NCBI GenBank assembly: GCA_030295235.1
Contig: AP026124.1
Span: forward strand, 620,001-684,000
Reading direction: 5' to 3'
From: Fistulifera solaris
Lineage: Eukaryota; Bacillariophyta; Bacillariophyceae; Naviculales; Stauroneidaceae
Length of the DNA: 64,000 bases
Below the pieces are notes generated by a model that saw nothing but the letters and a program-made list of their open reading frames with translations, was not told where the DNA came from and searched no databases. This document shows, piece after piece, positions 48,856 to 62,852 of this stretch. Position 1 is the stretch's first letter, and every line of letters begins with the position of its first letter. A program made the translations under genes and the position numbers.

Positions 48856-49592
48856 ACTCTTCTGATTGTCTGGTGCGCTCTGTTCCCGTGAATGAGAGCT
48901 ATAAAAAGATTAAAGTCGGTTCTATGGGTATTGCTTGATGCCCTCGATCCAGATTGTAACTTCATCATGATGGTCGAGGAATAGATACGTAGTACTCCGT
49001 ACCAGGTACCGTACCTGGTACCGGTACCTACCGGTACCGTTATCGTACTCCGTAATAGTGATACTCGATACTCCATCACACCGGTACCGGTACCACAGGT
49101 GTTTTAACTTGTATTGCTATGGTATGAAGTGTGCGGGAAGCCTTGAATCGATAATACTTCAGTCCCGGGAAATGTCGTTGAGCAGATGACTTTGCCATAA
49201 AGTTCGAAGACGTAAACAGGAAGTGAAGCTAATATTTTCATTGATATTGTCGATGTACATTATTGGGGTAACCGTGTGTGAACCAACAATATTGTTTCGG
49301 TCGCGGATGATGTCGATGAAAACTGTTTCAAGCAAACAACTCTGCCCTCAACGCTCAACAAATGGTGGTCTTAGTCGCTGAGGCCAAATCTAATGGGATC
49401 ATAGTCCGCTGTATAGCTGATATTTTCTTTCCAGTTCCGCCAATATTCCCTGTTCGACACTTGACAAGATTATCACTAAGAGTTCACCACCTAATCCGTA
49501 GTCTGTATCGTTTTAAAAGGTTAGTCTACATAGATTAGTGACCGATAAGGCCGGCACTGCCTTCAGGTTTCTCAGCCGTGTTGTTCTTGAGT
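48856..49592. other. Intergenic with GGTACC-rich tract
   Basis: No gene. The part 48990-49095 is dense in GTACC, ACCGGT and TACTCCGTA strings (next entry). The rest is AT-rich 3' flank of IspH. Confidence 0.5.
48990..49095. repeat. GGTACC/ACCGGT palindromic tract
   Basis: Overlapping copies of CCGGTACC, GGTACCGG and TACTCCGTA in about 100 bp, able to form short hairpins. The same words recur singly near 2282, 16610, 32430, 42880, 55940 and 58415, always outside coding sequence. A genome-specific dispersed word; function unknown. Confidence 0.7.
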
Positions 49593-59641: not shown

Positions 59642-60475
59642 AGCGTTTTGTTTCATGATAGGTTCTTTGTTCTAGCTCGTTTTCTTCCTGATTTACAGAT
59701 CAAATTGTTGCTGTTTGTTTATCCTAGAACGCAATAAACTCGTACTCCGTAACATATCCTTATAATTTATGATTGAACTACAGTCGTGGAATCATCGTAA
59801 CCTTACGACCGACACTCTCGAGAGAGCTATAGGTGAATACCGAAGACTATGATCTCATACGCAAGAATTTTCGACGCAAAGAGTCAAGCGTGTATTTCCA
59901 ATGTCTGAAGGTGTTATATGATAGGTAAGACAAACATAGCTTTCGATGCTGGCTGAACAAATAATGGAGTTGGGTAGCATTCTGGCTCGGAAGGAAGCAT
60001 GCTCGTGACTGAAATACAGTCGTGAATGGTAAACATTGAAGACACAACGATTTTCAAGGCTTTTTGACGCAAAGAGTCAAGTGTGTATCTTCCAATGTCA
60101 CTGAAGGTGATAAACAAGTTTAGTTTCCATGCTAGCTGGTTTGATACCAACAAAAGTATCCGGTTTGGCCTTTCGTAAAGCACAATACTTGTTATATGTT
60201 TTGCTCGTAAGGTTCGCGCTATTGTTGGGATTGCTACGCTAAGGTTAAGGTTTAGGTTTGATAGGCGTTTATTGATTATTGAGTCGTCGTCGAAGACCTA
60301 TTTGCGGAAAAGTTCATCGACGAAGATGCACACAGATGACGAGAGAGTTGATACTGTACCCCAGTTGCGAACTCTGACTTGCTAGTTTAGACTTCCTATT
60401 CACACACAATTATCAGTTATTCTTGTGTTGAATCAAACGTTTTAGAGTTGGATTAACTGAGCGGATAAACGCAAC
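59642..60475. other. Intergenic with a degenerate direct repeat
   Basis: No gene. GACGCAAAGAGTCAAG occurs at about 59873 and 60066 with flanking similarity (next entry). Confidence 0.5.
59770..60140. repeat. Degenerate direct repeat, unit about 190 bp
   Basis: Two copies share TACAGTCGTG, GACGCAAAGAGTCAAG, GTGTAT and CCAATGTC..TGAAGGTG in the same order, about 190 bp apart. They are diverged and have no terminal inverted repeats, so they are not an obvious transposon. Confidence 0.55.
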
Positions 60476-61350
60476 ATGGCAGCTTGCTCTCGATCGGTGT
60501 ACCCTCCAGCGGTCGTCAAGGCCGTGCAGCGCCAAATGAAGAAACGTCAGATGGGGCCAACATCGATTCCCAAGTCTCTGGAATTGAAAGAATGTATGGA
60601 AAAGACAAATTTGAAAGATGTAGTGGTAAGTTGACACTTGATTAATTGTTGGTAATGTATTGAATGATAATCTCATCGCTCTCCGATCAGTTGATTGAAG
60701 TCAAAACCGATAAGGCAACGAAGCATGTGGACGAAGTAGATGTGCTTCGGGGACAGGAAGTCATTAAACGTCATACGGGGAAGAACGGGGCCTTTTGTTT
60801 CGTCGTTCGGCGACCAGGTAAGAACATAATGTCTATATACTTTCAAGAAAACTCGGCAACTCACAATTATGTTTTCACGGATTGCATAGGATGATTCTAC
60901 TGCCGCGAGCAGGCACTCACACTGTCTGTCCTCGCGGCTATTTATCCGGAAGTCTTCGAGGGGTTTCAGATCTTTGGGATTATCAAGGAGACGGGGGTGG
61001 ATGATGAAGGTTTGGTAGAATTTGTTGACAAATACTTTGATTTCCCTCTTTACTGCGACAAAACATTTTCATTTTACCGAGCTCTGGGTGATCGAAAAAT
61101 TGGAATCAAAGATATTCTCAATCCTCTATCTCTTATCGGGATCTTATGCGATTCGATTAAACGCGTGGTAGAAAAGTCGGTTGATGGGAATTTTTACGGC
61201 GAAGGAATTGTCCAAGGGGGATACATTATTTTCAATAAAGATGGAAAGCCACAATGCATGTACCAGGAACAAACGGGTGTGGATATTCGTGTGACGGAAC
61301 TTGTTGCAGCACTCGATGCTGTTCGCGGTAACACGGCTACAAAGGGATAG
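60476..61350 (+). CDS. SELU: Selenoprotein U (PRXL2/SelU family) with in-frame UGA
   Basis: Three exons, 60476-60625, 60691-60817 and 60890-61350 (introns of 65 and 72 nt), give 245 residues with one in-frame TGA at 60892-60894. The TGA follows RRPG and precedes FYCREQALTLSVLAAIYP. In the thioredoxin-like PRXL2 family this place is RPG-C-x-x-C-RE, so TGA replaces the first Cys of CxxC, as in known SelU proteins with Sec (UxxC). The rest matches the family: FGIIKETGVDDEGL, FPLYCDKTFSFYRALGDRK, and GEGIVQGGYIIFNKDGK. No base is missing at the splice, unlike broken genes nearby. It is a redox protein, probably cytosolic, with no targeting peptide. See the SECIS candidate. Confidence 0.85.
60892..60894 (+). 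other. SELU: Selenocysteine UGA codon
   Basis: TGA in frame between exon-3 codons GGA and TTC, aligned with the first Cys of the CxxC of PRXL2 proteins. The frame is open on both sides, to the stop at 61348-61350. Confidence 0.8.
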
Positions 61351-61579
61351 ATGAGCTAAAACAAAAGCGGCATGAATGACGGTGAAGTCGGTTATAAGCA
61401 GCCTAGCAATCGGCTTTCTTGAAAAAATGACGCAAAATCATTTCAACTTGACCAGATACTGGGTATAGACACAGCTCCAGAAAATTTTGAGAAAGAATGG
61501 AAAGAATTCTACCCAGACTACTTAATTTTACAGGCTACTCGCACACAAAGCGGTGCCGTTATTTATTTCTTGGAAAGGA
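61351..61579. other. 3' region of SelU, convergent spacer
   Basis: Holds the SECIS candidate and then AT-rich sequence before the JmjC stop. Confidence 0.4.
61375..61445 (+). promoter_or_regulatory. Candidate SECIS element
   Basis: About 30 bases after the SelU stop. A 5' TGA (61383-61385) and a 3' TGA (61420-61422) flank a stem of 7 to 9 pairs, GTCGGTT at 61387-61393 with AATCGGC at 61408-61414, all pairs counting G-U. The loop ATAAGCAGCCTAGC has the unpaired AA (61396-61397) about 10 nt after the first TGA. Below, GAATGA (61374-61379) could pair with TCATTTC (61438-61444). These are the eukaryotic SECIS parts. The 3' side has a 5-nt bulge, so the fold is a candidate only. Confidence 0.55.
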
Positions 61580-62852
61580 TTAAACGGTTCGCTGTACTTT
61601 GCGTTTCCAATGATGCTCTTCCTCTTTTTGTTGATTGGCGAGAACTTCGTATTTCATTTGGAATTGGTCTCTAGCGTTCATTGCCCGGGCACGTTCCGCC
61701 AAATGAGGATACTCGTCGTCTAGCTTACACAATAGTTTCCACGCCATGCGCTTTCGTCCCGTTCGAGTCTCAATCCAAACGCGATCAAAGTTGCGAGGAG
61801 AGCAAAAGTTTTGTGTAACGCCCACCGTATCAGTCAAGTTGAGAACAGCACTATCAAAAAAGACCAAAATGAAGCATGAGAATCAACAACACCATATAAT
61901 CAAATGACACAAATCTCGTGTTTGAACACTTACTGCCACCATCCACTGGGAATGAAAACGGTTTCCCCGGAATTCTGTGTAAATTCATAGCAAGCAAAAC
62001 CTCGGTACTCGTCCATGTGCTGACATGCTGCCGCTTTGTGCTTGATTCGATCGAGAATAAAGGTGAAATAATGAACGGCTTCATCATCTTCATTGGACGT
62101 AATCAAGCCTTTTCCTTTCACGATGCGTTTGGGAACATGAGGAGGGAAAAGTACCCACCTCTTTGCCCATGAATTAAAGTATTCCATGCACTGGTTCCCA
62201 AGGGATCGATATGAACGGTTGTTCCCGAACGCTTGGGTCCAACGAGAAACCATCGATACGGCGGGCGTCGGGACTCGGAAACGAACCGAAATAGATCATC
62301 CCGAAAGTACGAAGGGACTTGATAATCGGTTAAAATGCGCTTGGCGTACTTGTCCTCGTCGAAATTGGAATCGAATATATAGAGTGGCGAGTCATCTTTA
62401 TTGTTTCGGAGATACTCCAGAAAATATTTCAATCTGACTTTGACTTTATGGCCATCATCATCCTCCCCGCACTTTAATTTGCGGTTTTGCAACTCTTCAT
62501 CTTTGGTTAATGCTTCCAAATCCCAACTGGCCACCGCAGGCCATGGTTCGGTCCTTTCCGCTGAATCGTAACCTTCCGGAATGCCTTTGATGACGCACGG
62601 AATTTCCTTGGCTTCATAATGTTCGAAGAAATCTTCCTTAGTCAATGTCCGGGCATCGAGAATAGCGGGAATGTCGACCGGGGCATTTTCGTCGGATGGA
62701 ATAAAATGTTCGTATTGTCGGTGTTCATCGGTCAGCGACTCGAGATAGCGGGGAAACTTTTCGGCCATGCCATCCACTTCCCAGTTTCGAAGACTCGGTC
62801 GATGGAGGCGTTTGGCCTCTTCTATTGATTTTTTCCAGTTTTCTGTTGTCAT
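61580..62852 (-). CDS. JMJD6-like JmjC oxygenase
   Basis: About 396 residues from ATG 62852 (an ATG at 62942 adds 30). The JmjC core shows the iron ligands HxD in TTVHIDPLGTSAWNTLIHG, the 2-oxoglutarate-side GQKRWVLFPP, and the third ligand His in SGWWHAVLNLTDTVGVTQNF. The His codon is split CA|T by an 83-nt intron (61851-61933). The pattern (HIDPLGTSAWN, GWWHAVLNL..T.A/GVTQNF) is that of JMJD6 and its plant and protist relatives, Fe(II)/2-oxoglutarate lysyl hydroxylases or demethylases. A frame break at plus-strand TTT 62162-62164 is fixed by one added base. The basic tail WKRKVQRTV could aid nuclear location. Confidence 0.85.

Follow-up and report, generated by a model that had tools for sequence, protein, structure and literature searches.

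The question raised by this locus of Fistulifera solaris is whether a TGA triplet lying in frame within an otherwise open three-exon gene ends the protein or is read as selenocysteine (Sec). The gene is located in a 64,000-nt stretch of DNA (positions 620001-684000 of contig C2, hereafter called the window), which is part of a 51.7-Mb genome comprising 61 contigs. The first-pass annotation of the window had proposed a PRXL2/selenoprotein U (SelU) gene of three exons, with a single internal TGA and with splice phases that agreed without any repair. On joining the exons, both the coordinates and the reading proved correct: 738 nt were obtained, encoding 245 residues, with one internal TGA (codon 94) and a terminal TAG, and the two GT-AG introns were in phases 0 and 1 (Table 1). 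Based on the sequence comparisons described below, we conclude with high confidence that the gene most likely encodes selenoprotein U (SELENOU), a PRXL2/FAM213-like redox protein of the thioredoxin fold, and that its UGA would be read as Sec.

Table 1. Positions of the SelU gene, of its in-frame TGA and of the SECIS candidate in the window, and location of the tandem SelU-like genes elsewhere in the genome.
Feature	Position	Strand	Remarks
Exon 1	60476..60625	+	codons 1-50; kept on C1
Intron 1	60626..60690	+	65 nt, GT-AG, phase 0; 52/71 aligned columns identical with the C1 counterpart
Exon 2	60691..60817	+	ends with ...RRP and the first base of Gly93
Intron 2	60818..60889	+	72 nt, GT-AG, phase 1; 52/74 aligned columns identical with the C1 counterpart
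Exon 3	60890..61350	+	contains the in-frame TGA; final TAG 61348-61350
TGA, proposed Sec codon (residue 94)	60892..60894	+	same on C1; Cys in the C30/C31 paralogues
UxxC redox motif (U-F-Y-C), predicted	60892..60903	+	context RRPG-U-F-Y-C-RE
SECIS candidate stem	61367..61433	+	starts 16 nt past the stop codon; ATGA 25 nt past it
Helix I (proposed)	61367-61373/61427-61433	+	6 pairs, one mismatch
5' SECIS core ATGA-C (candidate)	61376..61380	+	
Helix II (proposed)	61381-61393/61408-61419	+	12 pairs, bulged U 61383
Apical AA (candidate)	61396..61397	+	16 nt after ATGA; apical loop starts AUAA
3' SECIS core GA (candidate)	61421..61422	+	
Tandem SelU-like genes (SelU-b)	C19:408001-413000; C20:386001-391500		two per contig

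Analysis of the predicted protein indicated its family. The AhpC-TSA_2 domain (PF13911) was recognized with an E value of 2.7e-13 and a score of 50.7 bits, the gathering cut-off being 27, and the match spanned residues 116-218, with residue 94 lying outside of it. Two PDB sequences matched the protein, and the better one was prostamide/prostaglandin F synthase 9us9 (E 7.8e-8). When residue 94 was typed as Cys, it was aligned to the first of the two Cys in the CxxC motif of this enzyme (RRFGCVVC), which shares the position of the motif with the window protein but has Cys where the window gene has TGA. The segment RRPG-U-FY-C-RE displays the arrangement of the family, that is, a CxxC or UxxC motif following RRPG or RRFG, and the in-frame TGA stands, between conserved flanks, where the homologues have Cys. 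A genome search with the SelU protein yielded 13 matches. The window gene also differs at this site from its homologues on C30 and C31, which belong to the same family by sequence and have Cys (RRPG-C-VL-C) in place of the Sec codon, the identity being 37 percent with the C30 paralogue and 36 and 26 percent with two stretches on C31. The placing of the TGA at the family Cys position, put forward in the first-pass annotation, agrees with both the PDB sequence and the paralogues. All four tandem SelU-like genes (two on C19 and two on C20) have TGA in the context RRPG-TGA-xx-C, and the first of the C19 copies shows an apparent frame-shift 3' of this codon.

The relatives retrieved from databases are informative in a different manner. 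Among the 57 sequences tallied, the query row excluded, 42 begin beyond the site or no more than 10 residues ahead of it, and the site is W in seven, Cys in five and a gap in three; P0032, counted among the 42 late starters, has W there as well. Both the late starts and the W letters probably reflect the way in which gene callers handle TGA, W being the outcome of reading it with code 4, and automatic annotation is likewise expected to cut or mis-splice the window gene at this codon. Three of the relatives, named by EukProt, come from Attheya, Amphora and Cylindrotheca, which we take to be diatoms. A search of viral contigs with the relative P0001 returned three loci with 28-residue matches.

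The genome contains further genes with TGA at Sec sites. A single TGA was present at the Sec site in two of seven GPx matches, TGA was found likewise in three of four SelM matches, and the TrxR genes on C45 and C46, among 23 matches, had it as well; we assume that the TGA positions in these three families are the known Sec sites. No TGA was detected in any of the six Rdx (SelT/SelW-type) matches, and one of the 17 MsrA-type matches has an internal TGA (C7:700881-701144).

A search of the genome for the Sec machinery, which the first-pass annotation had named as a check, was successful for tRNA-Sec, eEFSec, SepSecS and SPS2 and fell short for PSTK, since the PSTK-like matches on C30 and C31 were weak and below the curated cut-off. 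The tRNA-Sec search gave 14 matches, six of which exceeded the Rfam cut-off, and ARAGORN classified five of these six loci as tRNA-SeC with the anticodon tca. These genes are arranged in tandem pairs on C27 (330126-330416) and C29 (316339-316634), with single copies on C3 and C4, and the C27 pair adjoins an RNase MRP match. The eEFSec gene is present on C11/C12; the C12 exon matched eEFSec 5izk with an E value of 2.9e-79 and contained PF21208/PF21131, the Pfam domains of eukaryotic SelB/eEFSec, above cut-off. With the selB model TIGR00475, the genome search gave 55 matches, none of them above cut-off. Of the selB-like matches on C3 and C4, near the tRNA-Sec genes, which were considered as EFSec, the one on C4 was rejected, being on translation what we presume to be a mitochondrial-type EF-Tu. 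SepSecS was found on C9/C10, with all five matches above cut-off. SPS2 was found on C16 only and has TGA at KG-U-ACK, the motif KG-U-xCK being in our understanding the Sec site of this protein; the matched stretch holds two TGA, one of which is at the Sec site, and the other may lie beyond an exon border.

A control is built into the genome, as two diverged copies of the gene are present. In the second copy, on C1 (exons 712036-712185, 712252-712378 and 712449-712909), the exons, splice sites, GT-AG borders, frame and TGA are all kept. Between the copies, dS was ~0.32 before the TGA and 0.29 after it, dN was 0.014 and 0.009, respectively, and the codon differences past the TGA comprised 25 synonymous and two non-synonymous ones over 151 codons (dN/dS = 0.03); divergence of the introns was far above that of the exons. 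TGA is a normal stop codon, and the gene might yield a 93-residue fragment or be decaying. Yet the preservation of TGA on C1, together with the purifying selection evident downstream of it, indicates that this triplet did not arise by faulty sequencing and does not terminate the protein, and the bias towards synonymous change, set against the much more diverged introns, points to translation of the sequence after the TGA. Hence, we consider a true stop very unlikely.

A splice variant that drops the TGA and leaves an ordinary protein could use the in-frame AG acceptors at 60952, 61009 and 61018, identified in a scan up to 61080. However, every one of them would remove the whole UxxC active-site motif, and the modeled GT-AG borders and frame are those kept on C1. 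Retention of intron 2 would preserve the frame in the window copy and lose it on C1, where this intron is 70 nt long, and the TGA would still be met, which makes such an escape by splicing extremely unlikely. The W found at the site in seven of the 57 database relatives could, in turn, mean that TGA stands for tryptophan in the nuclear code, as in table 4. We hold the probability of this to be practically negligible in view of the TGA at what we take to be the Sec positions of SPS2, GPx, TrxR and SelM in the same genome, the Cys in the paralogues, and the presence of both eEFSec and a tRNA-Sec with the anticodon tca, the W letters being more readily attributed to gene callers that use code 4.

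With UGA taken as a Sec codon, the following course of events can be envisaged. The two short introns would be spliced out, and the ribosome would reach UGA at codon 94; a SECIS stem-loop located just past the stop codon would recruit eEFSec with Sec-tRNA(UCA); Sec would be put in place of the first CxxC cysteine, and the resulting U-x-x-C pair would presumably serve as a reducing active site. The first-pass annotation had treated actual Sec insertion in this organism as inferred, and we are of the same opinion.

It had also directed attention to a SECIS element in the 3' UTR. The 3' region was searched with in-house scripts, with Rfam and with a single covariance model, and a SECIS-like stem (61367-61433) with pairing kept on C1 was found, though one of atypical form on which the models were silent. 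Earlier scanners, which demanded a shorter spacing or filled stem ends, either missed the candidate or gave a different pairing, on C1 only; it was found by a scanner with different rules and a wider spacing. All 18 proposed pairs are standard in both copies, and of the eight differences between the two 67-nt stems, three affect paired positions, all preserving the pairing, and five are unpaired. The constrained energies in the window and C1 copies were -14.9 and -16.2 kcal/mol for the whole stem and -9.9 and -13.9 kcal/mol for the upper stem. In the constrained minimum-energy fold, the window copy has both helices, and the C1 copy keeps helix II and forms helix I in a register different from that proposed. 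A two-copy scan for AA-type stems over the 290 nt past the stop codon passed this stem as the sole one. When applied to six gene pairs, the same scan found a stem in four (SelM1, SelM2, TrxR and SelU) and no conserved AA-type stem for MsrA and GPx. We propose, with reserve, that the stem 61367-61433 is probably the SECIS of the SelU gene, in an atypical form.

It is also conceivable, though rather unlikely, that the gene encodes a selenoprotein and that its true SECIS, of a form not yet recognised, lies in another part of the 3' UTR. Several observations speak against the candidate stem, and some of them fit this possibility. The apical adenines of the candidate lie 16 nt from ATGA and break the 10-13-nt spacing rule used by Lobanov et al. 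(PMC2375036). Rfam reported nothing in the window, and even at a relaxed threshold the 3' region matched none of its SECIS families; a genome search with RF00031 gave no matches either, which carries little weight as the same was true for 14 control genomes. The covariance model R1, comprising seven SECIS candidates from the SPS2, GPx and SelU-b genes of the same genome, did not report the SelU site with E up to 10, and its sole match in the window was 49214-49264 (E 2.2). The fold energy of the 100-nt region of the candidate was no better than that of shuffled sequences (108 of 200 at least as stable, z 0.11), and the proposed helix I is absent from the fold of the C1 copy. With a simple descriptor, an equally good match occurred in 14 of 1000 shuffled 290-nt 3' regions, a figure that is weakened by the fact that the spacing rule had been loosened with the site in view. 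Matches to this descriptor are not rare in the window: with both strands considered and the candidate counted in, the candidate's score is reached at five sites of the ATGA type, and at 14 if any NTGA is allowed. The alignment of the window with C1 had 74 of 85 columns conserved from the stop codon to 61435 and 182 of 210 beyond; the degree of conservation is thus similar in the flank and in the stem, and by itself it does not set the stem apart. Against the true element lying elsewhere stand the possibility of forming 18 of 18 pairs in both copies, the lack of any other conserved AA-type stem in the 290 nt scanned, and the TrxR genes on C45/C46, whose stem has the same GAATGACGGTG start and an AA spacing of 15 nt.

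The last resemblance allows a tentative suggestion, one that we deem doubtful, that the SECIS ruler is relaxed in this lineage, with the apical adenines of SelU and TrxR at 15-16 nt from the ATGA core. If true, SECIS-binding proteins would rely on recognition of the core and accept an apical motif that is displaced or absent. The stems chosen after GPx and three of the four SelU-b genes have no apical AA. The motif GAATGAYGG is shared by seven of 11 stems of other genes in alignment A2, a biased count, as the choice of these stems relied in part on visual inspection; in the window, it occurs three times versus 1.40 expected, and at least three occurrences were seen in 19 of 100 shuffles. As to individual genes, the SECIS-like stem chosen 3' of the GPx genes on C19/C20 is without AA at the apical position, and the SelM-type gene at C3:2259842 and C4:2150486 is followed by two AUGAC...UGA stem-loops, which are 192 (C3) and 206 (C4) nt apart.

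Selenoprotein U with Sec is a known family, diatoms included, as the first-pass annotation had stated and as the cited portions of two papers confirm (PMC2375036, PMC7539508). In the former, 16 selenoprotein genes, including two for SelU, are given for Thalassiosira pseudonana, whose SelU is, as proposed for the window gene, a Sec-form SelU of a diatom; its selenoproteome also has GPx, TR, SPS2 and SelM, as does the genome described here. In the latter, which covers 36 algal genomes, the Sec form of SELENOU, as proposed for the window gene, is reported for over half of them, diatoms are credited with 20-44 selenoprotein genes, and F. solaris is mentioned for another family, PDI_e. The cited text of another study lists SelU among the eukaryotic selenoproteins detected in ocean samples (PMC2398784), and F. 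solaris itself is described as an allodiploid diatom (PMC5935921), which the genome analyzed here resembles in its paired contigs and its mean GC of 0.458. Since TGA-bearing SelU genes have been published for diatoms, the window gene adds to a known type: a selenoprotein U gene is ordinary for a diatom, and what makes this one of interest is its atypical SECIS candidate, which may help to define the SECIS elements of diatoms. The locus also provides an example, with good support, of a stop codon that would be recoded in a diatom-like alga.

Two features were noted in the neighborhood of the SelU gene. On its 3' side, a convergent minus-strand gene occupies 61930-62840 of the window; the only domain match in 62118-62840 is a cupin below cut-off, and a JmjC domain is above cut-off in 61930-62295. 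On the other side, a 34-nt direct repeat (59862-59895 and 60055-60088, spacing 193) with 88 percent identity sits between SelU and a gene that we take to be phosphoglycerate-mutase-like.
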